Origin: Elusimicrobiota bacterium
GTDB lineage: Bacteria; Elusimicrobiota; Elusimicrobia; UBA1565
Length of the DNA: 34,194 nucleotides
Reading direction: 5' to 3'
Assembly: GCA_016218495.1 (NCBI GenBank)
Contig: JACRDU010000138.1
Location: 1 to 34,194, forward strand
Shown here one piece after another: positions 2-14,338 of this stretch; the stretch's first letter is position 1; every line of letters begins with the position of its first letter. The position numbers and the translations under genes are program-made. The notes below the pieces were generated by a model. The model made no database searches. It saw only the letters and a list, made by a program, of their open reading frames with translations, and was not told the DNA's origin.

Positions 2-250
2 CGCGCGGACCTGCCCGGCGGCGACCCGCCGGCGGACGCGCCGCTCGAACAGCGCGAACGGAGAGCGGCGTTGGACCGGGCGCTGGCCGCCCTGGAGCCG
101 GCCGACCGGGCGGCGCTGCAGATGCGCGAGTTCGACGGCCTTTCGTATGATGACATCGCCGGAGCGCTGGGCGTCCCGGTCGGTACGGTGAAGTCGCGCC
201 TGCACCGCGCGCGGCTGGCCCTGGCGAAGGCCATGGAAGGGTTCAAGTGA
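2..250 (+). CDS. ECF RNA polymerase sigma factor, C-terminal part (cut by the window edge)
   Basis: The reading frame is open from base 2 and stops with TGA at 248-250, giving 82 residues. It contains sigma region 4: a first helix ending ALQMREFDGLSYDDIAGALG, followed by the recognition helix VPVGTVKSRLHRARLALAKA, the usual ECF helix-turn-helix for the -35 element. Region 2 lies outside the window. The stop overlaps the start of the next gene (GTGA), which encodes a zinc-finger anti-sigma factor, so the two form a standard sigma/anti-sigma pair. Family assignment is firm. The regulon is unknown, but the pilin-like gene just downstream is an obvious candidate target. Confidence 0.93.
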   Translation, partial: RADLPGGDPPADAPLEQRERRAALDRALAALEPADRAALQMREFDGLSYDDIAGALGVPVGTVKSRLHRARLALAKAMEGFK

Positions 251-726
251 GCTGCGACGAAGAAGCCCTGAACGAGTACTGCGACGGCGAGCTGGCGCCC
301 GAGCGGCGCGCCGCCATCGAGGGACACCTGGCATCCTGCCTCGCTTGCCGCGCGGTGCTCGAGCGGCTGAAGGCCGGCTCGGCCGCGTTCCGCGCCCACG
401 GCGCGGTGAAGGCCCCGCAGGGGCTGGCCAGCGCGGTGCTGGACCGGCCCCTGAAGGAGACCTCCGGCCGCGAGGCGCGCTGGGCGCCGGTCGCCGTGCT
501 GGCTTCGTTGACCCTCGTCGTCTTCCTCTCCGGGAAGGCCTTGAAGCCGCAGATTTCCGGGATCTTCAACCAATGCATGGGGATGATATCCGGCGCGGCG
601 TCCAGCGTCGGTTCGGCGGGGGGGCCGTCCTCCGCACCCAGCCCCGCATCCCCGCTCTGGTTGGTCTTGGCCGTCCTCTGCCTGGCCTTCGCGCTGGCCT
701 TCTGGTGGAAGCAGCGCAAGCGCTGA
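247..726 (+). CDS. Membrane anti-sigma factor, zinc-finger type, with a pilin-like membrane segment
   Basis: The protein has 159 residues and a GTG start that overlaps the sigma-factor stop by 4 bp. The N-terminus carries a ZAS/zf-HC2 motif: Cys3, then His27-x3-Cys31-x2-Cys34, the fold that holds ECF sigma factors inactive. A first membrane helix spans about residues 80-99 and a second about 136-153, so the zinc domain is cytoplasmic and the 100-135 loop is probably outside. The odd part is residues 80-126, which align without gaps to the pilin-like protein encoded next (see findings). From residue 96 onward, 15 of 31 positions are identical, including KPQ.S.IF. The fold and role follow from known families; the idea that the pilin-like part senses or mimics pilin is inference. 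Confidence 0.88.
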   Translation: MSCDEEALNEYCDGELAPERRAAIEGHLASCLACRAVLERLKAGSAAFRAHGAVKAPQGLASAVLDRPLKETSGREARWAPVAVLASLTLVVFLSGKALKPQISGIFNQCMGMISGAASSVGSAGGPSSAPSPASPLWLVLAVLCLAFALAFWWKQRKR

Positions 727-765
727 CGGGCCGAGAACAAATCCCCCCCTCCCCTGTCCAAGCTT

Positions 766-785
766 CCGACCCCGCGCGGGGTCGG
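766..785 (+). promoter_or_regulatory. Perfect 20-bp palindrome overlapping the pilin gene's ribosome-binding site
   Basis: CCGACCCC-GCGC-GGGGTCGG is its own reverse complement. Its right end shares bases with the GGGAGG Shine-Dalgarno sequence (784-789) of the gene starting at 794. It could fold in RNA as an 8-bp hairpin that partly hides the ribosome-binding site, or act as a dimeric operator. Which one applies cannot be decided from sequence. Confidence 0.5.
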
Positions 786-793
786 GAGGCGTT

Positions 794-1006
794 ATGGAAG
801 CGTTCGTGCGTCAGTGGCGCCGAATCAAGGACTCCAGCCGGGGGCAGGGCATCGTCGAATACCTGATGATGATGGCCGTCGTCGTCGGCGTCGTGCTGGT
901 CGTGGGCAGGATGTTCAAGCCCCAGGTCAGCAGCATCTTCATGGGGGTCATGGAGAAGATCCAGCGCGCCGTCGAGAGCGTCGGCGGCACGGGCGGAGGC
1001 TACTGA
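794..1006 (+). CDS. Flp/TadE-type pilin-like small protein
   Basis: This 70-residue protein begins with a short positively charged leader (RQWRRIKDSSRG) and then Q-G-I-V-E22-Y23, which fits the Flp prepilin motif G/xxxxEY, with cleavage expected after Gly17. A hydrophobic stretch at 24-41 and a short amphipathic tail rich in glycine follow, as in Flp pilins. GGGAGG at 784-789 precedes the ATG. The gene follows the sigma/anti-sigma pair with a 67-bp gap that holds a 20-bp palindrome. No prepilin peptidase or Tad secretion genes lie in the window, so the protein may form a pilus or be a small pilin-like membrane protein with another use. It ends directly against mutM, which is convergent. Confidence 0.8.
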   Translation: MEAFVRQWRRIKDSSRGQGIVEYLMMMAVVVGVVLVVGRMFKPQVSSIFMGVMEKIQRAVESVGGTGGGY

Positions 1007-1798
1007 CTACCTCTGGCAGACCGGGCAGTACAGGCTGGTGCGCCCCGCCAGAGGGCGGCGGGTCTTGAGCAGGGGGTGGCCCTTCGGGCAGGCCCGTCGG
1101 CCGTAGACGGCCAGCGCCAGGTGCGCGCGGCCGGGCCGGCCCAGCGGGTCGAGGAAGGCCTCGTCGTCGAGCGTCGAGCCGCCGGCCGCTATGCCGGCGG
1201 CCAGCACGGCCGTGACCGCCGAGGCGAGGCGCCGGCGTTCGTCGGCCTTGAGCGACTTGGCCGCGCGTGCCGGGCGCACGCCGGCGCGATAGAGCGCCTC
1301 GCTGGCGTAGATGTTCCCCACCCCGGCCACCACGGCCTGGTCTAGGAGCAGGGCCTTCACCGGGGCCCTGCGGCCTTTGAAGGCCCGGGCCAGGGCGGCC
1401 GCGTCGAACCCCGTCGAGAGCGGCTCGGGACCGAAGTCGGGCAACGGGCACCCGACCCGGCCGAAGCGCCGCGGGTCGACGAAGCGCAGCGAGGCGTCGC
1501 CGAAGTCGAGCCGGAAGCGTTCGTGCTTGTGGGACGGCTCGGCGCTTGCGGCGATGAAGAGCCTCCCCGACATGCCGAGGTGGGCCGTCAGCTCCCGGCC
1601 CCCCGCGAAGTCCAGGAGCAGGTACTTCCCGCGCCGCCGGGCCCCCGTGAACACCGAGCCCTCCAGGCCCGCCAGCGCCCGCGCCGGCGGCCGGCGGTAG
1701 AAGGTCGTCGTGGGGACCGTGACCCCCGTGACACGGCGGCCGGAGAGCTGCTCGGCGAGGATGCGGCGCACCGTCTCGACTTCGGGGAGCTCCGGCAC
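1007..1798 (-). CDS. mutM: Formamidopyrimidine-DNA glycosylase (Fpg/MutM)
   Basis: Base-excision repair enzyme that removes 8-oxoguanine and formamidopyrimidines and nicks the strand. The start is GTG at 1796-1798 because it is followed at once by PELPEVETVRR, whose proline becomes the catalytic N-terminus; the open frame extends much further upstream but that part is not coding. Visible landmarks are the early Glu of PELPE, the RRGKYLLLDF beta-strand lysine, and the VAGVGNIYASEALYRAGV helix-two-turn-helix. The C-terminal zinc finger is unusual: Cys-x3-His-x16-Cys-x2-Cys instead of four cysteines. At 263 aa the length is normal. The start lies 2 nt beyond the stop of the upstream CcsA-like gene, so the two are co-transcribed. 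Confidence 0.95.
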   Translation of the reverse strand: MPELPEVETVRRILAEQLSGRRVTGVTVPTTTFYRRPPARALAGLEGSVFTGARRRGKYLLLDFAGGRELTAHLGMSGRLFIAASAEPSHKHERFRLDFGDASLRFVDPRRFGRVGCPLPDFGPEPLSTGFDAAALARAFKGRRAPVKALLLDQAVVAGVGNIYASEALYRAGVRPARAAKSLKADERRRLASAVTAVLAAGIAAGGSTLDDEAFLDPLGRPGRAHLALAVYGRRACPKGHPLLKTRRPLAGRTSLYCPVCQR

Positions 1799-1800
1799 GG

Positions 1801-2628
1801 CTAGGGGACGGGGGGCGGGGCGTGGCGCACGGAGACCATCGAGATGAGGACGGCGGCGAAGGCGATGAGGCCCAGGTGGACGCTGCGCCGTCCGCGCACG
1901 CCCATGAAGCGATGGCCGTACAGCACGGCGGCGTAGAGCAACCAAGGCACCAGGGAGGCCATTTCCTTGAGCGACCAGCCCCAATAGTGCCCGTACTCGG
2001 ACTTCGACCAGACGGCCCCCATGACGAGCCCCAGGGTCATCACCGGCCAGGAGAAGGCGATGGTGGACAGGTGGAGGCGGTCGAGGACCTCGAGGGCGGG
2101 CATCCGGTAGCAGAGCTCGGTGGGCTTGCGCGACTTGATCTGGCGTTCCTGCACGATGAGGGCCATCCCCACGCCGGCCGAGTTCATGAAGCCGGTGTAG
2201 GCCAGCATCAGCACCATCGGGTGGATGTTGAGCCAGTAGCTGCGCAGTTCCGGAGGCAGCGGCGCGGCCTGCGGGTCGGCCAGCAGGGCGGCTCCCGTCC
2301 CCAGGACGGTCCAGGGCAGCACGAAGGCCCCGAGGATGCCCAGGCGGCCGACCCCTTCGACCACCAGGAACACGACGGCGTTGGTGAACGCCAGCCAGGA
2401 GAGCACCCCGTGCATGGTCACGACCGGGAAGAGGTAGCCGTTCTGAGGGAAGGCCCAGAACTCGCGGACCAACGAGCAGAAGCTGCCCAGGTGGAAGAAG
2501 GCGCCGCAGCCCAGCAGCGCCCACATCCAGCGCCTCAGGCGCTCGTCGCGCGCTCCCAAGTAGGCCAAAGCCAGGCCAGCGGAGGCCGCGTAGAAGGCGA
2601 AAGCCGCCAGGAGCAGGGCCTTGAGCAT
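1801..2628 (-). CDS. CcsA/HemX-like cytochrome c assembly membrane protein
   Basis: The protein has 275 residues with about eight hydrophobic helices and conserved histidines in membrane contexts (FFHLGS, TMHGVLSW, NIHPMVLML), the pattern of CcsA/CcmC/HemX heme-handling proteins. The tryptophan-rich signature is present in altered form: WSKSEYGHYWGWSLKE, with WGWSLKE where CcsA has WGWDPKE. A canonical CcsA domain is encoded elsewhere in the window (16442-19432), so this copy may be a HemX-like paralog, perhaps acting on heme synthesis or on a special cytochrome. It heads a two-gene unit with mutM. No Shine-Dalgarno sequence is visible; TACTAT lies 5 nt before the ATG. Confidence 0.8.
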   Translation of the reverse strand: MLKALLLAAFAFYAASAGLALAYLGARDERLRRWMWALLGCGAFFHLGSFCSLVREFWAFPQNGYLFPVVTMHGVLSWLAFTNAVVFLVVEGVGRLGILGAFVLPWTVLGTGAALLADPQAAPLPPELRSYWLNIHPMVLMLAYTGFMNSAGVGMALIVQERQIKSRKPTELCYRMPALEVLDRLHLSTIAFSWPVMTLGLVMGAVWSKSEYGHYWGWSLKEMASLVPWLLYAAVLYGHRFMGVRGRRSVHLGLIAFAAVLISMVSVRHAPPPVP

Positions 2629-5074: not shown

Positions 5075-5526
5075 AGGCCCACCTGCTGCGCGCGCTGCTC
5101 TCCGCCTGCGTGGTGACGGGCGCCGGCTTCGGCCTGGGCCGCGGGGTGGAGCTCCTCCCGGAAGGGGCCGCGCGCGATTACGCGGAGCGCTATGCGCTCG
5201 AGCCCGGGCGCGAGCTGGCCGAACGGGTCGGCGACTCCCGCGCCGTGCGCAAGGCGCGCAAGAAGGCGCAGAAGGGCATCGAAGCCGCCGCCGAGAAGGC
5301 CGAGGACGCTCTGGAGTCGCGCGGCATCGAGGCCGACCGGGTGGCGGCGCTCTACACGACCGGAGCCTGGGCCGCGGCGGGCTTCGTCGTCTGCCTCCTG
5401 CTCACGCTGGCGCTGGGAATCTCATCGGCGGGCAGCGCCCTGGCCTTGGGCTTCAAGGTCAGCCTGGCGTTCTTCTTCCTGCAGGCCGCCCTCGTCTTCG
5501 GCGGCCTGGCCCTGCTGCGCGGCTAA
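5071..5526 (+). CDS. Small membrane protein of unknown function
   Basis: The 151-residue protein is not recognised. It starts with a hydrophobic segment (LLRALLSACVVTGAGFGLGRG), continues with a charged helical stretch rich in Ala, Lys and Glu (RKARKKAQKGIEAAAEKAED), and ends with two membrane helices at about 95-117 and 127-148. The ATG is fused to the stop of the MFS gene (ATGA), so it is translated with the transporter and may assist it; that is only context. Its stop overlaps by 4 bp the convergent stop of the sulfur-carrier fusion gene. Confidence 0.75.
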   Translation: MKAHLLRALLSACVVTGAGFGLGRGVELLPEGAARDYAERYALEPGRELAERVGDSRAVRKARKKAQKGIEAAAEKAEDALESRGIEADRVAALYTTGAWAAAGFVVCLLLTLALGISSAGSALALGFKVSLAFFFLQAALVFGGLALLRG

Positions 5527-6947
5527 TAGGTCGTCAGGCTCTTGTCGATGCGCTCGGCCCAGGCCAGGATGCCCCCGGCCACGTTGGAGACCTTCTTGTA
5601 GCCAACCTCCTGCAGGAACTTCACGGCCTTTGCGGAGCGCGCTCCGGAGCGGCAGTGCACGAGGATCTCGGCCTGGGGGTCGAGCTCCTTGTAGCGCTGC
5701 GGCACCTCGCCGAGCGGGATGTGCTTGGTGCCCTGCAGGCGGCAAATCTCAAGCTCGTGGGCTTCGCGGACGTCGACGACGACGACGCCGCCTTTCTCCA
5801 TGCGGGCCTTCAGCTCTTCGACGGTGATCTCGGGGACTGACATGGGCTCCTCCTTTGGGCGCCGGGCGGCGCAGAACTGCTCGTAGTCTATCAATCGGGT
5901 GACGCTCGGGTGCGGGCCGCACAGCGCGCAGGCGGGGTCCTTGCGCAGCTTCAGGCGCCTGAACGACGCCTCCAGGGCGTCGTAGGTCAGCAAGGTGCCG
6001 ATGAGCGGCTCCCCGATGCCCAACACGAGCTTCAGGGCCTCGACGGCCTGCAGCGCCCCGACGACGCCGGGCAGGACCCCCAGCACCCCCCCCTCCGCGC
6101 AGGACGGCACCAGCCCCGGCGGCGGCGGCTCGGGATAGAGGCAGCGGTAGCAGGGGCCCTTATCGGCCCAGAACACCGAGACCTGCCCCTCGAAGCGGAA
6201 GATGCTGGCGTAGACGTTGGGCTTGCCTAAGAGCGCGCAGGCGTCGTTGACCAGGTAGCGCGTGGCGAAGTTGTCGGTGCCGTCGACGACGACGTCGTAG
6301 CCGGCGAAGACGCCCAGGGCGTTGCCGGCGTCCAGGCGCAGGGCATGTCCGACGACCTCGACGAAGGGGTTGAGGCCGCGCAGGCGCTGGGCGGCGGCTT
6401 CGAGCTTCGGGCGGCCCACCGATTCCGTGCCGTAGAGCACCTGGCGCTGCAGGTTCGAAGCGTCCACCGCGTCGAAGTCGACGATGCCGATGCGCCCCAC
6501 CCCGGCGGCCGCCAGATAGAGCGCCATCGGGGAGCCCAGGCCGCCCGCGCCGACGATGAGGATGCGGGCGTTCTTGAGCTTCTTCTGCCCCTCGACGCCC
6601 ACCTCGGGAAGGATGACGTGGCGGTTGTAGCGGGCCAGCTCATCGGGCGAGAGCGCCGCCTCGGCGGCCGGCGCGCCGCCGGCGATGGCCGGGACCAGGA
6701 CCAGCTCGTCGCCGTCCTTCAGGCGGGTGGCCGGACCCTGCAGCGCCCGGATGTCGGTCTCGCCGAGGTAGACGTTGACGAAGCTGCGCAGGCTCCCGTC
6801 CGGCGCGAACAGGTGGGCCCGGACGGCGGCGTGTCGCGCGGCCAGGGCCTCGAGGGCCTCGGCGACGGTGGCGGCCGAGACCTCCACCACCGCCTTCCGG
6901 TCGGCCAGGGGGCGCAGCGCGGCGGGCAGGCGGATGGAGACGCTCAT
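5523..6947 (-). CDS. Three-domain fusion: CysO-like sulfur carrier, MoeZ/MoeB-type E1 enzyme, rhodanese
   Basis: The protein has 474 residues. Residues 1-91 form a ubiquitin-like sulfur carrier ending VPAIAGG; this end and the RSFVNVYL segment resemble mycobacterial CysO more than MoaD. About 100-365 is an adenylating E1: GAGGLGSP (133-140) for ATP, SNLQRQ, DGTDN (222-226), and zinc cysteines 266, 269, 340 and 343. Residues 369-474 are a rhodanese with active Cys432 in HCRSGARS. The E1 would adenylate the carrier's terminal glycine and the rhodanese supply sulfur, giving a thiocarboxylate. Here the GG is buried inside the chain, so cleavage after Gly91 seems needed; the JAMM peptidase encoded directly upstream, overlapping by 4 bp, is the natural candidate. 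A strong internal ribosome site precedes Met369. Confidence 0.92.
   Translation of the reverse strand: MSVSIRLPAALRPLADRKAVVEVSAATVAEALEALAARHAAVRAHLFAPDGSLRSFVNVYLGETDIRALQGPATRLKDGDELVLVPAIAGGAPAAEAALSPDELARYNRHVILPEVGVEGQKKLKNARILIVGAGGLGSPMALYLAAAGVGRIGIVDFDAVDASNLQRQVLYGTESVGRPKLEAAAQRLRGLNPFVEVVGHALRLDAGNALGVFAGYDVVVDGTDNFATRYLVNDACALLGKPNVYASIFRFEGQVSVFWADKGPCYRCLYPEPPPPGLVPSCAEGGVLGVLPGVVGALQAVEALKLVLGIGEPLIGTLLTYDALEASFRRLKLRKDPACALCGPHPSVTRLIDYEQFCAARRPKEEPMSVPEITVEELKARMEKGGVVVVDVREAHELEICRLQGTKHIPLGEVPQRYKELDPQAEILVHCRSGARSAKAVKFLQEVGYKKVSNVAGGILAWAERIDKSLTTY
5841..5855 (-). promoter_or_regulatory. Internal ribosome-binding site and ATG for a free rhodanese domain
   Basis: On the minus strand AAAGGAGGAG, then CCC, then ATG (5843-5841) lies inside the fusion gene exactly at the start of its rhodanese domain (Met369). 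The core GGAGG is about 5 nt from the ATG, better than the site of most genes here. It would yield a 106-residue free rhodanese in addition to the full fusion. Confidence 0.55.
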
Positions 6948-7411
6948 GGGGTTTCTCCGATGACGGTCTGGGCGACGCGCAGGTCGCCTTCGAGGAAGGA
7001 GCGGCGGTCGGGCGAGAGGGTCCAGACCCGGGCCTCGCCCGGGGCGCGCCCCCGCACCGAGACGATGAGGTAGGCGTAGGACGGCCAGGCGCGCTCCAGG
7101 TCGAAGGGCGACGGCCAGGCCGGCGCGTCCGGGTGGCTGTGGTAGACCCCCAGCACGGCGAGGCCGCGGCGGTCCAGGTCCCGCTCCGCCGCCAGCAGCG
7201 CGCGCGGGTCGAAGGCGTAGCGGTTGCCGCGCGGGCCCTCGCCCCAGGCGTTGTCGAGCGCCGCGGCCTCGACGGGGACGACGGCGGCTTCGGGCGTCCC
7301 GAAGGAGTCCGGCAGGGGCCCGGCCAGCAGGCCGCAGCATTCCTCGGGATAGGCGCGCGCGGCGTGGGCGCGCACGGCGGCCTCCAGCGCGGGGCTCAGG
7401 ACCAACATCAT
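6944..7411 (-). CDS. JAMM/Mov34 metallopeptidase, Mec-like (CysO-cysteine peptidase or carrier processing)
   Basis: This 155-residue zinc peptidase has a complete JAMM motif: a catalytic glutamate in YPEECCG (23-24) and His91-Ser-His93-x7-Ser101-x2-Asp104. Members of this family next to CysO and CysM release cysteine from the CysO-cysteine adduct; relatives also trim ubiquitin-like precursors. The start is ATG 7411 rather than the upstream GTG 7423, because GGAGGGAGGG sits just before it and the ATG overlaps the cysM stop (ATGA). The downstream fusion gene overlaps in the same way. In this cluster the enzyme could have two jobs: freeing cysteine from CysO and cutting the CysO-E1 fusion after its internal GG. 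The second job is inference. Confidence 0.92.
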   Translation of the reverse strand: MMLVLSPALEAAVRAHAARAYPEECCGLLAGPLPDSFGTPEAAVVPVEAAALDNAWGEGPRGNRYAFDPRALLAAERDLDRRGLAVLGVYHSHPDAPAWPSPFDLERAWPSYAYLIVSVRGRAPGEARVWTLSPDRRSFLEGDLRVAQTVIGETP

Positions 7412-8343
7412 CCCTCCCTCCACCAGCGCTCGCCCAGGTAGCGCTCGCCGGAGTCCGGGAAGACGGTGACGACGACGGCGGCGCGCCCGGCTTCGGCCTC
7501 GGCGCGGGCGACGCGCAGCGCGGCCGCCAGGTTGGCGCCGCCGGAGGGGCCGAGCAGCAGGCCGTCGGCGCGCGCGGCCTCCCGCGCGGCGGCCCGGGCC
7601 TCGTCGGTGGAGACCGTCAGCTCGGCGTCGGCCAGGGCGGGGTCGTGGATGCCGGGGACCGCCGCCGTGGCCAGGTGCTTGAGGCCTTCCAGGCCGTGCA
7701 GCGGGGAATCGGGCTGGACCGAGACGGCGCGCAGCCCCGGCCGCGCCTCCTTGAGGCGGGCCGCGGTGCCGCGGAAGGTCCCGGTGGTCCCCAGGCCGGC
7801 GACGAAGTGGGTGACCAGGCCGGCGGTCTGTTCGAGGACCTCGGGCCCGGTGGTGTCGTAATGCGCGCGCCAGTTCTCGGGGTTGTCGTACTGGTTCGGG
7901 TAGAAGTAGGCCGCGGGGTCTTCCTTGAGGATGCGACGCGCCTCATGCATCGCCCCGTCCGAACCTTCCAGCGGGTCGGTGAGGTCGAGGCGGGCCCCGT
8001 AGGCCTCGAGGATGCGGCGGCGTTCGGCTCCGATGGAGGCGGGCACGGCCAGGCGGACCGGGAAGCCCAGCTTCGCGCCCAGCCAGGCGTAAGCGATGCC
8101 CGTGTTCCCGGAGGTCGAGTCGAGCAGGGTCATCGTCGGCCGGAAGGCGCCGGAGGCCAGCGCCGCGAGGACCATGCGGGCCGCCGGGCGGTCCTTCACC
8201 GAGCCGCCGGGATTGACCCACTCGGCCTTGGCGTGGACCTCGACGGAGCCCGGCAGGTCGGGGCGGCTGATGCGCAGCAGAGGGGTGTTCCCTATGCCCA
8301 GGTCCAGGACGGTGGGAATGGCGGCGCGGTCCAGGACTGCCAT
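7408..8343 (-). CDS. cysM: CysM-type cysteine synthase (PLP-dependent)
   Basis: The 311-residue protein is of the fold-type II PLP family. Lys50 in NPGGSVKDRPA forms the Schiff base, TSGNTG (77-82) binds the substrate carboxylate, GTTGT (185-189) holds the cofactor phosphate, and GPSGGAN (265-271) lies near the pyridine nitrogen. The gene neighbours (Mec-like JAMM peptidase, CysO-MoeZ fusion) indicate the CysO-dependent route, where activated serine reacts with a protein thiocarboxylate. Whether it takes O-phosphoserine or O-acetylserine cannot be decided from what I see. The start is ATG 8343, preceded by GGAG. An IscR-like inverted repeat (8366-8390) lies just upstream, so regulation by cysteine or Fe-S status is likely. 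Confidence 0.92.
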   Translation of the reverse strand: MAVLDRAAIPTVLDLGIGNTPLLRISRPDLPGSVEVHAKAEWVNPGGSVKDRPAARMVLAALASGAFRPTMTLLDSTSGNTGIAYAWLGAKLGFPVRLAVPASIGAERRRILEAYGARLDLTDPLEGSDGAMHEARRILKEDPAAYFYPNQYDNPENWRAHYDTTGPEVLEQTAGLVTHFVAGLGTTGTFRGTAARLKEARPGLRAVSVQPDSPLHGLEGLKHLATAAVPGIHDPALADAELTVSTDEARAAAREAARADGLLLGPSGGANLAAALRVARAEAEAGRAAVVVTVFPDSGERYLGERWWREG

Positions 8344-8357
8344 GGGGGCTCCATAGC

Positions 8358-8363
8358 AGTATA
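8358..8363 (-). promoter_or_regulatory. Probable -10 element of the cysM-mec-cysO/moeZ operon
   Basis: TATACT on the minus strand, with an overlapping alternative TATGCT (8368-8363). The presumed -35 region falls inside the IscR-like site, so a bound regulator would block polymerase. The spacing to the GGAG ribosome site is tight, which makes the alternative hexamer equally possible. Confidence 0.45.
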
Positions 8364-8365
8364 GC

Positions 8366-8390
8366 ATACCTGACTAAACTAATCCAGATT
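8366..8390. promoter_or_regulatory. IscR/Rrf2-family type 1-like operator
   Basis: The 25-bp site has half-sites ATACCTGACTA and TAATCCAGATT around AAC. Compared by hand with the E. coli IscR type 1 consensus as I remember it (ATASYYGACTR...YAGTCRRSTAT), 20 of 25 positions agree. An overlapping exact repeat CTAATC-CA-GATTAG covers 8379-8392. The site lies directly upstream of the cysM promoter and immediately after nfuA. No Rrf2-family gene is in the window. Confidence 0.55.
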
Positions 8391-8394
8391 AGGG

Positions 8395-8973
8395 CTAGTG
8401 TCCCTGGTAGTAGGGGTTCTCGCCCGAGGCGTGGTCGGTGACGTCGAGGACGTCGTCGAGCTGGGGGATGGCCTCGCGCAGCGCCCGCTCCACGCCCTGG
8501 CGCAGCGTGACGGCGGCGCTGGCGCAGCCGTGGCAGCCGCCCAGCAGCTTCACGTAGATGGTGGCGTCCTTCACGTCGACCAGCGAGATCTCCCCCCCGT
8601 GCGCGGCGACGGCGGGGTTTATTTCGCTTTCCAGGATGGCGGCGGCCTTCGCCTTGATCTCGGCGGCGGTGGGGAGGTTGGTCGGGGTGCCGTCCTTGAC
8701 GGCGGGCCGGCCGGAGGCGGCGTGCCCTTCGATGAGGGCGGCCACCTGGCGCGTGACGGCGGGCCAGTCCTCGTAGGTGTCGCGCGTCACCGACAGGGTG
8801 GAGCCGTTCACCTTCACCCCGGAGACCGTGTCGATGCCGAAGACCTTCTCGGCCAGGGGCGAGGCCTTCGCGGATTCGGCGTCGCCGAACCACCAGGCGC
8901 CCTCGCCCAGCGGGGCGTCGAGCTCGAAGCGGCAGGTGACGAGGTTCGAGGCCAGGCGGGTGGAAATCTTCAT
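8395..8973 (-). CDS. NfuA-like iron-sulfur cluster carrier
   Basis: The 192-residue protein has two parts: an N-terminal scaffold-like Nfu_N domain (about 5-90, LVTCRFELDAPLGEGAWWF) and a C-terminal NifU domain (about 105-178) with the cluster-binding Cys147-x2-Cys150 in LLGGCHGCASA. Such proteins bind a 4Fe-4S cluster as a dimer and deliver it to target enzymes. The length and order match NfuA. It begins 1 nt after the stop of a rhodanese-like gene, so the two are one unit. The IscR-like site just past its end belongs to the next operon but places both units in one Fe-S and sulfur region. Confidence 0.9.
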   Translation of the reverse strand: MKISTRLASNLVTCRFELDAPLGEGAWWFGDAESAKASPLAEKVFGIDTVSGVKVNGSTLSVTRDTYEDWPAVTRQVAALIEGHAASGRPAVKDGTPTNLPTAAEIKAKAAAILESEINPAVAAHGGEISLVDVKDATIYVKLLGGCHGCASAAVTLRQGVERALREAIPQLDDVLDVTDHASGENPYYQGH

Positions 8974-8974
8974 C

Positions 8975-9355
8975 TCAATACCTCGGGATGAGCGGGTCGA
9001 CGGCTTGGGACCAGGCGTCGATGCCGCCCGCCAGGGCCTTGATGTCGGTGAAGCCGCGCTTGAGCAGGGCCTTCGCCGCGTTCAGCCCGTCGCGGCCCTT
9101 ATGGTCGTAGAGCGCGATCGGGGTGGCCTTGTCCCACTTGGAGAAGATCTCCTCGACGAGCTCCCGGGTGGCCAGGCGCGCGCCCTCGAGGCGGAGCATG
9201 CGGTGCTCCAGCTCGCTGCGCACGTCGACCAGCACGAGCTTGGGGTCGGCCTTCAGACGGGCGGCCAGTTCGGCGGGGCTGATGAGGAGCTTGGCCTCCT
9301 CCTCGACCTGTTCGGCGGGGCGGATGGGGATCTTCAGGTTCTTGGCGGCGGACAT
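8975..9355 (-). CDS. Rhodanese-like domain protein lacking the catalytic cysteine
   Basis: The 126-residue single rhodanese domain begins LLISPAELAARLKADPKLVLVDVRSELEHRM and ends ALAGGIDAWSQAVDPLIPRY. The active loop, normally C-x-x-G-x-R, reads Asp84-His-Lys-Gly-Arg, so the sulfur-carrying cysteine is replaced by aspartate and the protein contains no cysteine at all. It cannot form a persulfide and is more likely a binding or regulatory partner, perhaps of the NfuA-like protein encoded 1 nt downstream. The ATG at 9355 has TAGAAT 6 nt upstream and no Shine-Dalgarno sequence. Confidence 0.88.
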   Translation of the reverse strand: MSAAKNLKIPIRPAEQVEEEAKLLISPAELAARLKADPKLVLVDVRSELEHRMLRLEGARLATRELVEEIFSKWDKATPIALYDHKGRDGLNAAKALLKRGFTDIKALAGGIDAWSQAVDPLIPRY

Positions 9356-10336: not shown

Positions 10337-10549
10337 TCAGCCCCGGTTCATCTCGATGGGGAGCTGGAGGATGCGCTTGTTCCCGCGCGGGACCGCTAAG
10401 GACCAGGTTCCGCCGATGAACACCGGGATGGGGGCGACGCTGCCCGCGGACATCCGCTTCCCCCAGGAACGGAGCAGGGACGCTGCCGGCCGGTCCTTGA
10501 CGATGGGTTCCGCGGGCGCCTTCGCGACGGGGGTCGGGTTCTTTGTCAT
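10337..10549 (-). CDS. Small basic protein of unknown function
   Basis: This is a 70-residue frame from ATG 10549, with AGGAGA 9 nt upstream. The N-terminal third is Pro/Ala/Lys-rich (TKNPTPVAKAPAEPIVKDRP); the remainder (SLLRSWGKRMSAGSVAPIPV, then a WSLAVPRGNKRILQLPI strand-like stretch) looks like a folded domain. No family is recognised. The opposite strand also reads open here, but the gene on that strand clearly begins at 10776, so this frame occupies otherwise empty DNA. Support is the start site and a plausible protein composition only. Confidence 0.5.
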   Translation of the reverse strand: MTKNPTPVAKAPAEPIVKDRPAASLLRSWGKRMSAGSVAPIPVFIGGTWSLAVPRGNKRILQLPIEMNRG

Positions 10550-10775
10550 GGTTGTAGGTCTCCTGCTCCTAAAGTGTGGCCTGCGGGCCCATGAATCGCC
10601 TGAGCTTTTGGACCTACGCCATTTTATCATAAAGGCCTATGCCGCCGTGGGCCCATCGGCCTATATTGTGGACGCCGGCATCCCCGTCGGAGGAATATGG
10701 GTCCGGCGTCCCATCGCGGGCAGGGGCCCCTCGGCCCTGGACATCCGGCCAAGGCGGGGACTATACTCTAAGGAG
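10550..10775. other. Divergent intergenic region
   Basis: These 226 bp between divergent genes hold an AT-rich core (ATTTTATCATAAAGG at 10620-10634), which on the minus strand reads TATGATAAAAT and could be the -10 of the small 10337-10549 gene. Toward the right, TATACT (10762-10767) lies 8 nt before the ATG of the next gene. GGCCTAT occurs twice (near 10634 and 10659). No further gene is seen. Confidence 0.45.
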
Positions 10776-12380
10776 ATGCGTCTCCAATCGACCTCGCGCG
10801 CGCTCGTAGCCGTCCTGTTGGTCCCGGGAACACTCTGGGCGCAGTTCAAACCCGTCCCCGTCGGCGCGGAGTCCGCCGCCGGCCTGGGCAACTCCGGCGT
10901 GGCGGGGGCGAACACGACGCCGGCCGGCTCTCCCGGCCTGGGCACCAGCTATTACGGCCCCAACGTCAGCCTGACGAACAACAACGGTGCCTTCGCCGCG
11001 CCCCGGGCCGTGGTCCCCGGCGCGAATCCCTCCGCCTCGGCCGCCGCCGCCGTGAATCCCCAGGTGGCTCTGCCGTCTCCGGCCGCCGTGCGCTACAACG
11101 CTTCGCCCTCCGTAGAGGCCGCTCCCGGCGCACGGGCCGACATGGCCCGGCCCCAGGCCCGCTCGGCCGCGCCCTCTTCGATGCTGCCGGGCGCCCTGCC
11201 TTCCTTCGACGACCCCGCGCGGCGCACCCCCGAAGGCGGCTCCGGCGGCATGTCGACGGTCCAGAACGCCGTGAAGGACCTGGCGGGCGCGAAGAAGGCC
11301 GAAGCGGGCGGCGTCGAAGGAGCCGTCAGCGGCCGCTTGGACGCGCTCTTCGATTTCTCCCAGACGCGGCCCGGGACCTCCATCATGCCCGACGGCGCCT
11401 CCCGCGCCGAAGGTTCACAGGGCACGGCGGTGCAGGGCTTGCCGGACCCCAAGGTGGTCGGCGTCGAGCCGGCCCTCGGCAAGGTCTCCGCGCTGGCCCG
11501 CCGGGCCGAGCCCGGCGAAGCGGCCGCCCTTTACGGCCGGGCCGTCGAAATCGCCAACGAAGGGCTCCCCCCCGCCCAGGCCTCGGTGCGCACCGCCGCC
11601 ATCCGTCCGGAAGCCGCGGCGCGCGCGCCGGCGGCCGTGCAGGGCCTTGTGGAGAAGGCCGTCGCGGCGGCGGCCCAGGGCCGCACCACCGACGCCATCC
11701 GCTACGCCAAGGGGGTCCACGGCTGGAACGCCCTGCTCGCCTCGGGCTCCCAGCCCTACATCGAGAACCTCCCTGAGATGACCGGCACGGTCAAGCACGT
11801 GCTGCGTTCCGCGCTGGAGACCCCCGGGAAGGCCGCGGCCGCTCCGAAGGTGCGCATCGAGGCCGTCTCGCGCCCCGGACGCGACGCGCTGCGCGCGCGC
11901 TTCAAGTTCGCCGACCAGAAGGACGCTCCGGTGGCGGCCGTCCCCGCCGCCTTCGCCGAGGGCTTCGTCCTTCCCGAGCTCAAGGGCTTCGTCGCGCTGG
12001 AGGGCCCTTCCGCCCCCGAGGGCCCGTCGCTGGCCGCGGCGTTCGCGATGCGGCCGCAGGCGGGATTCTCCTCGGTCTACCGCCAGGCCCGCTCCCGCGG
12101 CGACAGCGCCTGGCGCGGCTTCTGGGTGGCGGCGCGCTCCATCGTCGCCGGAACCTCCCTCACGCTCTGGGACCAGCTCAAGGCCTTCGTGCTCCAGGCC
12201 CTCCAGGCCCTGGGCATCCTGCATTCCGCCGTCGCGTCCGGGCCGATGGTCGAGCCCGTCTCGCCGCAGGCGCTGGCCGGCCTTAGGGCGCTCGCCCCCG
12301 AGCGCGCCGAGCGCCAGCCTCTCCCCGCCGCCGCTCCGGACGCGCTGGGTCTGGGATACCGGCTCATCAGCGGACGCTGA
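10776..12380 (+). CDS. Secreted alanine/proline-rich protein of unknown function carrying an SGRL motif
   Basis: The 534-residue protein has a clear signal peptide (MRLQSTSRALVAVLLVPGTLWAQ). After it comes a long disordered Ala/Pro/Gly region to about residue 180, the motif SGRLDALFDF at about 185-194, and a more structured helical C-terminal half with no recognised domain. The start is ATG 10776: AAGGAG touches it, too close for normal use, and TATACT lies 8 nt upstream, so the message may be almost leaderless. The stop overlaps the next gene's start (TGATG), so it is co-translated with the exported swivelling-domain protein. The SGRL motif recurs in two other exported proteins of the window. 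Confidence 0.8.
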   Translation: MRLQSTSRALVAVLLVPGTLWAQFKPVPVGAESAAGLGNSGVAGANTTPAGSPGLGTSYYGPNVSLTNNNGAFAAPRAVVPGANPSASAAAAVNPQVALPSPAAVRYNASPSVEAAPGARADMARPQARSAAPSSMLPGALPSFDDPARRTPEGGSGGMSTVQNAVKDLAGAKKAEAGGVEGAVSGRLDALFDFSQTRPGTSIMPDGASRAEGSQGTAVQGLPDPKVVGVEPALGKVSALARRAEPGEAAALYGRAVEIANEGLPPAQASVRTAAIRPEAAARAPAAVQGLVEKAVAAAAQGRTTDAIRYAKGVHGWNALLASGSQPYIENLPEMTGTVKHVLRSALETPGKAAAAPKVRIEAVSRPGRDALRARFKFADQKDAPVAAVPAAFAEGFVLPELKGFVALEGPSAPEGPSLAAAFAMRPQAGFSSVYRQARSRGDSAWRGFWVAARSIVAGTSLTLWDQLKAFVLQALQALGILHSAVASGPMVEPVSPQALAGLRALAPERAERQPLPAAAPDALGLGYRLISGR

Positions 12381-14338
12381 TGCGGCCGGCCCGTTTCGGC
12401 GCGCTGGCGCTCTGCGGCGCGTTCCCCGCCTTCGCCGCGAACGCCGCCGCCGAGACCTTCCTGGTGCGCCGCGGCGCCGTTCCTCCCCCCGCCGTCCAAG
12501 AGTGGTACTCCTCCCTGGACGCCCTCCTGACGGGTGTCGACGCGCTGGCCCTGCGCAGCGCCGCCGCCGCCGCCGCCCCGAGCGGCGCCGATGCGGCCTA
12601 CGCGGCCTCCCGCCTCTCGGGGCTCCTCGAGCATGTCTCGCGCGTCGTCGGCCCGTCCGCCGCCGCGGGAGTGAAGGAGGTCTCGGAGAAGCTGGCCGCG
12701 GCTGGCCGCACGGACGGCCCGCTGGGACCCGCCGACGCGGCGCTGCTGGCCGACGCGGCCTCCCGTTCGGCCCTGCGCCTGGCCGGGACCCTGCGCGAAC
12801 GCGCGCTGGAGGCGACGGGTCCCCGCGCCGCCCCGAACGCCCTGCTCAGCGAGGACGGGGCCGACTGGGAGCTCCCGTTCCTCGCGGTGGACGGCGTCGA
12901 CGGTCCGCGCGCCACTCCCGCACTCGCCGCGCTGGCGGCCGCGGTCCGCGCGGGCGGGGCCCCGGAGCAGGCGGCGGCCTCGCGCCGCCGCGTCTGGACG
13001 CGTTCCGCCGGAGTCGAGGTCTTCCTCGACCTCTGGGCTCCCCCGGGCTCGCCGTCGGTGCGCGTGCGCGCCGAGGCTCCCGGCCCCGGGTCGCTGGAAC
13101 AGTCGGCCTTCTACTTCCTGGCCAGGGCGCTCTTCGAATGCGGCTTCTCCGTCTCCGCCGAATCCGGCATCGTGCGGGCGGCCTTCGGGGCCGAGCGCGC
13201 GGCCGACCCTGAGGAGCGCGCCGAGCGATTCGCCTCGGCCTGGGGCGCGGCATCGGCCAGCCGCCGCCTGGCGCCGCTGCTCAAGGCGCACCTGTCGGAG
13301 ACCCTGACCCGCCGCCAAGGCGAGGAGCGCGTCGAGGCGTTGGCGCGCGCCTTCGCGGCCGAGGGCAGCCTGCCCGTGGTGGGCTCGGGTCCGGACGCGC
13401 TCGACAAGGGCATGGCGGCCTGGATGACGCGCGCCGGAGCGCGCCAGGCCCTGCGCTCCCGGATGGACGCGGACCTTTCGGCGCTGGGGCTCCCCCTCTT
13501 CCCGGCCGGAGACCCCGTCGGCCAGAGGACCATCGACCTGCGCTTCAACGGGCCGGTGGCGGCGGCGATGGCCCGCGGAGAAGCGCGCAAGGCCGGCGGA
13601 CGCCTGCTCCGCGACCCGCGCTGGGACCCGTTGGACCGTCTCGCGGCCGCCGTCCCCGTCCCCGGGCCGATGCGCCGGCGTCTGGGGCCCGCGCTGGCCC
13701 GGTCCCTGCCGGCGGGCGTCGCCGCGGGGCGGCGGGTGGAGCGCGGGCAGTGGCGGGTCGGGCCGGACGCCTGGCTCATCGTCCTCTTCGCGCGCGGCGA
13801 CGACGGCCTTCCCTCCCGGATGGCCGCCGAAGTGGCCTCTTCCGCGCTGGCCCGCCGTTCCGTCTCCCCCGCCGACGCCCTGGCCCGGCTGGAGGAGTTC
13901 GGGCTCGTCGCCGGCTCCGAGGCGGAGGGGCCGGGCGCTCTGCCCTTCGACGCCGTAGCCGGGACCCCGCTGGCGGGAGGGGCTCCGGTCGAAGGGCCCC
14001 TGACCTTCGACGCCGCCCGGGCGGCGGAGGGCAAGCTGATCTTCGCCACGCCCTTCCTCTCCTCCAGGGACATGCAGTCGGCCGCGAAGGCCCGGGCCGT
14101 CGTCCCGACGGCCGGGGGACCGCAGGCCCAGGCGTTCGCCGCGCGGGCGGGCATCCCCGGCGTGGACGTGCCGCGGGGGTCGTGGGACGAAGGGACGGGC
14201 TTGATGCTGGAGCTCCCGCTCTGGAAGGCGGGACCCGGAGGCGGCCGGGTAGCTTCCGAACGGCGCCGCGCTCTGCTGCGTGAAGGCGACAAGGTCCGCG
14301 TCGACGGCCGGCGCGGGACCTTAGAGATCCTTCCTTAA
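12380..14338 (+). CDS. Exported protein with a C-terminal PEP-utiliser 'swivelling' domain lacking the phospho-histidine
   Basis: The 652-residue protein starts with a signal-peptide-like segment (RFGALALCGAFPAFAANAAAE). Residues about 25-545 are Ala/Arg-rich, helical and unrecognised. The last 100 residues match the mobile domain of PEP synthase and pyruvate phosphate dikinase: GKLIFATPFLSSRDMQSAAK, then ARAVVPTAGG, AARAGIPGVDV and EGDKVRVDGRRGTLEIL. In those enzymes GG is followed by xSHA, whose histidine carries the phosphate; here it reads GGPQAQAF, so no phosphotransfer is expected. No ATP-grasp or PEP barrel domain is seen. The gene is coupled to the upstream secreted protein by TGATG. 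Its end overlaps the convergent flippase gene by 18 bp. Confidence 0.82.
   Translation: MRPARFGALALCGAFPAFAANAAAETFLVRRGAVPPPAVQEWYSSLDALLTGVDALALRSAAAAAAPSGADAAYAASRLSGLLEHVSRVVGPSAAAGVKEVSEKLAAAGRTDGPLGPADAALLADAASRSALRLAGTLRERALEATGPRAAPNALLSEDGADWELPFLAVDGVDGPRATPALAALAAAVRAGGAPEQAAASRRRVWTRSAGVEVFLDLWAPPGSPSVRVRAEAPGPGSLEQSAFYFLARALFECGFSVSAESGIVRAAFGAERAADPEERAERFASAWGAASASRRLAPLLKAHLSETLTRRQGEERVEALARAFAAEGSLPVVGSGPDALDKGMAAWMTRAGARQALRSRMDADLSALGLPLFPAGDPVGQRTIDLRFNGPVAAAMARGEARKAGGRLLRDPRWDPLDRLAAAVPVPGPMRRRLGPALARSLPAGVAAGRRVERGQWRVGPDAWLIVLFARGDDGLPSRMAAEVASSALARRSVSPADALARLEEFGLVAGSEAEGPGALPFDAVAGTPLAGGAPVEGPLTFDAARAAEGKLIFATPFLSSRDMQSAAKARAVVPTAGGPQAQAFAARAGIPGVDVPRGSWDEGTGLMLELPLWKAGPGGGRVASERRRALLREGDKVRVDGRRGTLEILP

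Follow-up and report, generated by a model that had tools for sequence, protein, structure and literature searches.

The window analyzed here (34,194 nucleotides) is the entire contig C111 of one Elusimicrobiota genome, G000 (GenBank JACRDU010000138.1). Its first thousand positions hold the end of an ECF sigma factor gene, an anti-sigma factor gene, and a small pilin gene, laid out as follows:

2..250 (+): region 4, the C-terminal part, of an ECF sigma factor (Sigma70_r4_2, E=3.7e-20), in a gene truncated where the contig begins (position 1)
247..726 (+): zinc-finger anti-sigma factor of 159 aa (zf-HC2, 1.7e-7), whose GTG start overlaps the sigma stop codon
256..390 (+): zinc-binding domain of the anti-sigma factor, residues 4-48, whose Hx3Cx2C signature spans residues 27-34 (from sequence)
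484..612 (+): pilin-like helix, residues 80-122, whose membrane half is followed by a tail predicted to be periplasmic, GKALKPQISGIFNQCMGMISGAASSVG (core 532-612)
655..720 (+): a further membrane helix at the C-terminus of the anti-sigma factor (from homologue comparison and an AlphaFold2 model)
735..761 (+): ECF-type promoter GAACAAATCCCCCCCTCCCCTGTCCAA, 5' of the accessory pilin (from a pattern search)
763..788 (+): stem-loop beside the ribosome-binding site, within what is predicted to be the 5' untranslated region (-22.4 kcal/mol, z=-3.8)
794..1006 (+): accessory Flp-like pilin of 70 aa, with its prepilin-peptidase site intact (RGQGIVEY)

A preliminary description of this DNA gave the gene order as sigma, anti-sigma, pilin, which is correct, with the sigma gene itself cut at the contig edge. 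The same order is found in 13 relatives (the relatives named here are metagenome-assembled genomes), where a complete sigma orthologue lies before the anti-sigma gene; in one of them, G038, a gene on the opposite strand intervenes. The genes that flank the module mostly differ between these relatives. In the window's pilin, the Flp1_like domain (E=3e-6) and the class III signal peptide (E=2e-4) both score slightly below the Pfam cut-offs. Elsewhere in the window, a group of sulfur-transfer genes (ThiS, ThiF, rhodanese domains, a Prok-JAB protease, a PALP enzyme, NifU, and a second rhodanese) on the minus strand at 5523-9355 looks like a set for sulfur-carrier-dependent cysteine synthesis, and two adjoining long ORFs of 674 and 652 aa on the plus strand at 10356-14338 are without a Pfam match.

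The N-terminal part of the anti-sigma factor belongs to the zinc-binding class, with the Hx3Cx2C signature present and zf-HC2 above its cut-off. The three residues H27, C31, and C34 of the window protein correspond to an H, C, C triplet that is invariant across the 14 homologues described below. AlphaFold2, run on the single chain, predicts a confident zinc-finger domain, a continuous helix at 79-120, and a second helix at 137-158. All 12 Foldseek matches in the PDB were anti-sigma complexes (RsiW, RslA, ChrR, and a SigK complex), at the weak level of E>=0.1. Together with the co-encoded ECF sigma factor, the protein would form a putative sigma-anti-sigma pair.

The C-terminal part of the same protein resembles a pilin. 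The gapless alignment of anti-sigma residues 80-126 with residues 22-68 of the adjacent pilin, as put forward in the preliminary description, was confirmed with 18 of 47 positions identical, and the 15 identities in 31 positions claimed from Gly96/Gly38 onward were reproduced exactly. Local alignment of the two proteins scores 80, whereas 2000 shuffles, with the membrane part and the tail shuffled separately, averaged 24 and reached 58 at most; the resemblance is therefore real and not due to chance. Nor is it that of a generic membrane helix, an explanation that we reject since all 14 mimic anti-sigmas match a pilin profile (E from 3e-18 to 6e-5) and none of 35 other zinc-finger anti-sigma ORFs, used as controls, does so even at E<10. 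The earlier claim of a pilin core built into the regulator is thus borne out, and this core is kept in homologous clusters. Within the protein, conservation is highest in the tail (0.53), followed by the zinc finger (0.46), the membrane half (0.34), and the linker (0.26). Gly-1 is missing in 15 of 16 mimics and Glu+5 in the remaining one, while the 29 listed true pilins all carry both. By its sequence, the C-terminal segment is pilin-derived and is not a pilin. Most homologues stop at about the pilin's end, and a second C-terminal membrane helix occurs in G000 and G001 only. A pilin-profile search of solved structures gave no match.

The full-length combination of zinc finger and pilin segment was found in 14 of 341 Elusimicrobiota genomes (E<=5e-41, with the next match at 2e-24). 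The scan of the collection looked for one tail motif and speaks for this phylum only. These anti-sigma factors fall into family f1 (G000, G001, G002, G004, and G007), family f2 (G010, G018, G038, and G040), and family f9 (G186, G188, G194, G207, and G211). A second architecture is present in two genomes of family f3 (G011 and G015), where there is no zinc finger and the membrane helix and pilin tail form the C-terminus of the ECF sigma factor itself; the pilin gene comes next. The tails of these two fusions match in 18 of 18 residues, with the whole proteins 67% identical. Two further loci were considered. In G031, the pilin tail, the pilin, and the promoter are present, and we excluded this genome from the anti-sigma count because its zinc finger looks frameshifted. 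A weak profile match on G006:C190 was rejected as an ordinary anti-sigma factor without a pilin tail.

The preliminary description took the segment to mimic the neighboring pilin, and this part was not supported. A search of the window's own genome returned a Tad-locus pilin (G000:C155:45675-45827, minus strand) that aligns to the anti-sigma factor with a score of 125. Specifically, anti-sigma residues 96-122 (GKALKPQISGIFNQCMGMISGAASSVG) are identical to this pilin (GKMFKPQISGIFNQIMGMISGAASTVG) at 23 of 27 positions, versus 13 of 27 for the adjacent pilin. The locus on C155 encodes, alongside the pilin, a TadE-like protein, RcpC/CpaB, a secretin, a T2SSE ATPase, and two T2SSF proteins. Among the 12 genomes that allow the comparison, 11 have a mimic clearly closer to its own Tad pilin (16-27 of 27) than to the adjacent pilin (10-19 of 27), and in the twelfth, G007, the two tie at 14 each. 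We therefore reject the adjacent pilin as the main match. Another hit of the first own-genome search, a 35% match at C145:17196, lies within a long ORF and is apparently unrelated. At the Tad locus, a second, less usual Flp-like pilin (GQAVVEYLLMTTMLLFLFTGMYKLLQ) lies directly before the major pilin (L002, about 1749-1960, minus strand), and similar genes occur in G001, G002, and G007.

Co-variation of the mimic with its own pilin, named as a check in the preliminary description, holds for the Tad pilin of the same genome, with the exception of G007. The sample consists of the 12 genomes with both a mimic and a recovered Tad pilin; G004, G011, G015, and G186 stayed unpaired because no Tad pilin was recovered from them. 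With G007 excluded, the mean identity over 27 residues is 21.9 between a mimic and its own Tad pilin, 13.6 between a mimic and the adjacent pilin, and 13.7 between mimics of different families. When the pairing by genome was shuffled, the observed sum was reached in 0 of 200000 shuffles overall and in 12 of 3456 within families, figures that are only indicative because the genomes are not independent lineages and few independent lineages exist. At sites where Tad pilins of the same family differ, the residue of the mimic is that of its own genome's pilin in 62 cases, that of the other pilin in 6, and neither in 28. The within-family tests rest mainly on f2, since the f1 Tad pilins are identical; the residue matching in f9 is weak (13 own, 1 other's, and 16 neither).

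The species-specific residues illustrate this further. The mimic and the Tad pilin alike carry SQIQTMISGAAGSLG in G040 and SSIQQMISGAATSLG in G010, and in G038 they share the ending AANNLGQ. In G010 and G040, whose cores differ from each other in three residues, all 27 residues equal those of the own pilin, and yet 14 and 15 of 25 synonymous codons differ, with 15 expected if codons were random. The orthologous pilins of these two genomes differ in 10 of 22 codons, and the mimic-pilin differences are not fewer than that. Since the 27 residues are identical and the synonymous codons randomized, the match is kept by selection at the protein level, and the saturated synonymous sites led us to reject recent DNA copying or gene conversion in these genomes. 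Separately, G040 has two Tad pilin loci (L129 and L130); their major pilins show no difference over 48 residues, although 13 of 45 codons differ. In the exceptional G007, the mimic is f2-like and the Tad pilin f1-like, and the sigma factor shares 83-84% identity with its counterparts in G010 and G040. Mis-binning or transfer of the G007 contig is possible, and the names of the isolates point to a sampling site common to G007 and G040. Altogether, as judged from the sequences, the regulators follow the Tad pilin of their own genome, species-specific residues included, with G007 as the one exception.

The adjacent pilin is better read as an output of the module, because an ECF-type promoter precedes its gene. 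The pattern GAAC-N15..19-GTC(C/T) lies 5' of the accessory pilin in 17 of 17 clusters (shuffled sequences: mean 0.27, maximum 2) and was found upstream of 0 of 17 Tad pilin genes; in several genomes, the latter have TTGACG-N17-TACACT-like sites upstream, as judged by eye. Given the promoter in 17 of 17 clusters, control of the accessory-pilin gene by the sigma factor is predicted. The regulon was searched by promoter pattern: the strict f1 form has one copy in G000 (that of the window), one in G001, and three in G002, including one at the sigma gene, and a similar element is visible by eye before the sigma gene in f2. Several genomes have an ECF-type promoter at the sigma operon as well. Since few promoter copies were found, the predicted regulon is small, consisting of the module and the accessory pilin.

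Several observations surround this output. Accessory pilins with an ECF-type promoter also occur in G003 (L127 near 1763, plus strand) and G006 (L128 near 1751, minus strand), where no sigma/anti-sigma module was seen beside the pilin and no pilin-copy regulator was found in the genome. A similar promoter lies near larger, paralogous anti-sigma factors without a pilin tail in several f9 genomes (L125 on G188:C71, G211:C35, and G207:C6), and cross-talk between these paralogues and the mimic module is possible. In many lineages (window 763-788; L001, L184, L107, L183, L186, L139, L142, L143, and L180), the accessory-pilin gene has a stem-loop just 5' of its ribosome-binding site, with differing stem sequences and a mean z of -1.8 over 17 loci (-3.5 to -4.3 in f1 genus g1); it is a possible second layer of control for this pilin.

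We propose, with a probability of roughly 0.6, that the locus is an ECF sigma/anti-sigma/accessory-pilin module whose input domain, an uncleavable copy of the cell's major Tad pilin, acts as a sensor. The best reading of the comparisons above is that the regulator would sense the major Tad pilin, or the Tad machine, through this copy and would turn on the accessory pilin. Direct sensing of pilin by the anti-sigma factor, suggested in the preliminary description, is what we infer from the co-variation with the pilin and the predicted regulon, both of which support it. The pilin copy would remain in the inner membrane, in the topology of an unassembled pilin, and would make pilin-type contacts with pilins or with the Tad platform. 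These contacts would shield the anti-sigma factor for as long as the membrane contains its normal pool of major pilin. If that pool runs out, or is blocked in the Tad machine, the copy would be exposed, and the exposed anti-sigma factor could be cut within the membrane, with a CPBP/Rce1-like protease as a candidate. The freed sigma factor would then activate both its own operon and the accessory-pilin gene. As to the sign of this signal, protection by pilin, rather than triggering, is a guess.

The sigma factor is probably freed by proteolysis. Since the f3 tail is fused straight to the sigma factor, release there is most likely proteolytic, and the CPBP/Rce1-like genes beside four of the 14 modules (G004, G007, G010, and G038; 0-5 such genes per genome) favor the same route. 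A gene of this type was not detected in the window's genome, so a different protease would be needed there. More tentatively, and with the odds somewhat against it, a co-evolving decoy fitted to two regulators, the sigma and the anti-sigma factor, may read the assembly state of the pilus, such that the accessory pilin replaces or joins the major pilin when the latter is depleted or blocked.

Other explanations of the pilin copy have to be weighed against this sensor. We consider it rather unlikely that the copy is a docking or localization tag that brings the sigma/anti-sigma pair to the Tad platform, with the activity of the machine, and not the pilin pool, as the signal; still, a partner such as TadB/TadC, or any other Tad part that co-evolves with the pilin, would give the same conservation and co-variation. 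It is improbable that the fused pilin merely anchors the regulator in the membrane, its likeness being a relic held by gene conversion or general constraint without any sensing. The membrane half has indeed diverged as an ordinary anchor would (mean identity 0.34), and the module is present in just 14 of the 341 genomes, but the tail is the best-conserved region of the protein, species-specific residues are matched in the protein though the synonymous sites are saturated, and the sigma fusion carries the same tail in a second architecture.

We give very little credence to plain product feedback, in which the copy would mimic and sense the adjacent pilin. The 15 identities in 31 positions in the window and the proximity of both genes in the clusters found speak for it, but the own Tad pilin is closer in all comparable genomes except the tied G007; product feedback through a weaker interaction with the adjacent pilin is possible. 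It is just as improbable that the regulator doubles as a part or poison of the pilus, the copy entering or capping Tad assembly and limiting growth separately from the sigma role. In most homologues, the tail does end at about the end of the mature pilin; however, the cytoplasmic zinc finger and the absent cleavage site should prevent export, and Glu+5, which is important for type IV pilin assembly, is usually lost. Since the sensing of pilus state is an open question, with few examples (PilS and PleC) and contact surfaces that are hard to map, the 27 residues kept matched to the own pilin are of interest as a candidate sensing surface, likely a contact marked by evolution. They also suggest a search rule: sigma regulators that sense parts of a machine may be recognized by a tail that resembles, and co-varies with, a structural subunit whose gene lies elsewhere in the genome.

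Known systems share some of these properties. In Pseudomonas aeruginosa, the membrane regulator PilS is reported to read the major pilin PilA directly and to adjust pilin expression (Kilmury and Burrows, as summarized in PMC6058289). PilS, a histidine kinase that has six membrane segments and acts via PilR and sigma-54, is not a pilin copy; unlike PilS, the Elusimicrobiota regulator is an ECF anti-sigma factor, or the sigma factor itself, containing a pilin segment. In Caulobacter crescentus, Tad pilins of the inner-membrane pool are proposed to signal to the membrane regulator PleC through the pilin helix (PMC11067988 and PMC13234629); that signal acts on c-di-GMP and the cell cycle, and the portions consulted describe no pilin domain within the regulator. 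A pilin also acts on an anti-sigma factor in P. aeruginosa PAO579, where the variant PilA108 triggers proteolysis of the membrane anti-sigma factor MucA through AlgW; this is the effect of a mutant, via a protease-activating C-terminal motif and without sequence mimicry (PMC3684759).

With the Class I (ASDI) anti-sigma factors RsiW, RslA, and ChrR, the mimics share the Hx3Cx2C signature, the N-terminal anti-sigma domain, and an ECF sigma gene in the same operon, and with many members of this class, a membrane helix; the word "pilin" is absent from the survey of anti-sigma factors in PMC7406223. Membrane-fused ECF sigma factors activated by proteolysis (IutY, ECF52, and others; PMC8999054) have in common with the f3 fusions a C-terminal membrane segment on the sigma factor itself, but their extensions are anti-sigma-like or carbohydrate-binding, whereas that of f3 is a pilin tail. 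The preliminary description knew of no described example of the design, and the literature that we searched on anti-sigma factors and pilins, mainly openly accessible papers, agrees in that no pilin copy within a sigma regulator was found in it. Within that literature, a sigma regulator containing a co-evolving pilin copy is undescribed, and PilS-PilA and PleC-PilA are its functional precedents.
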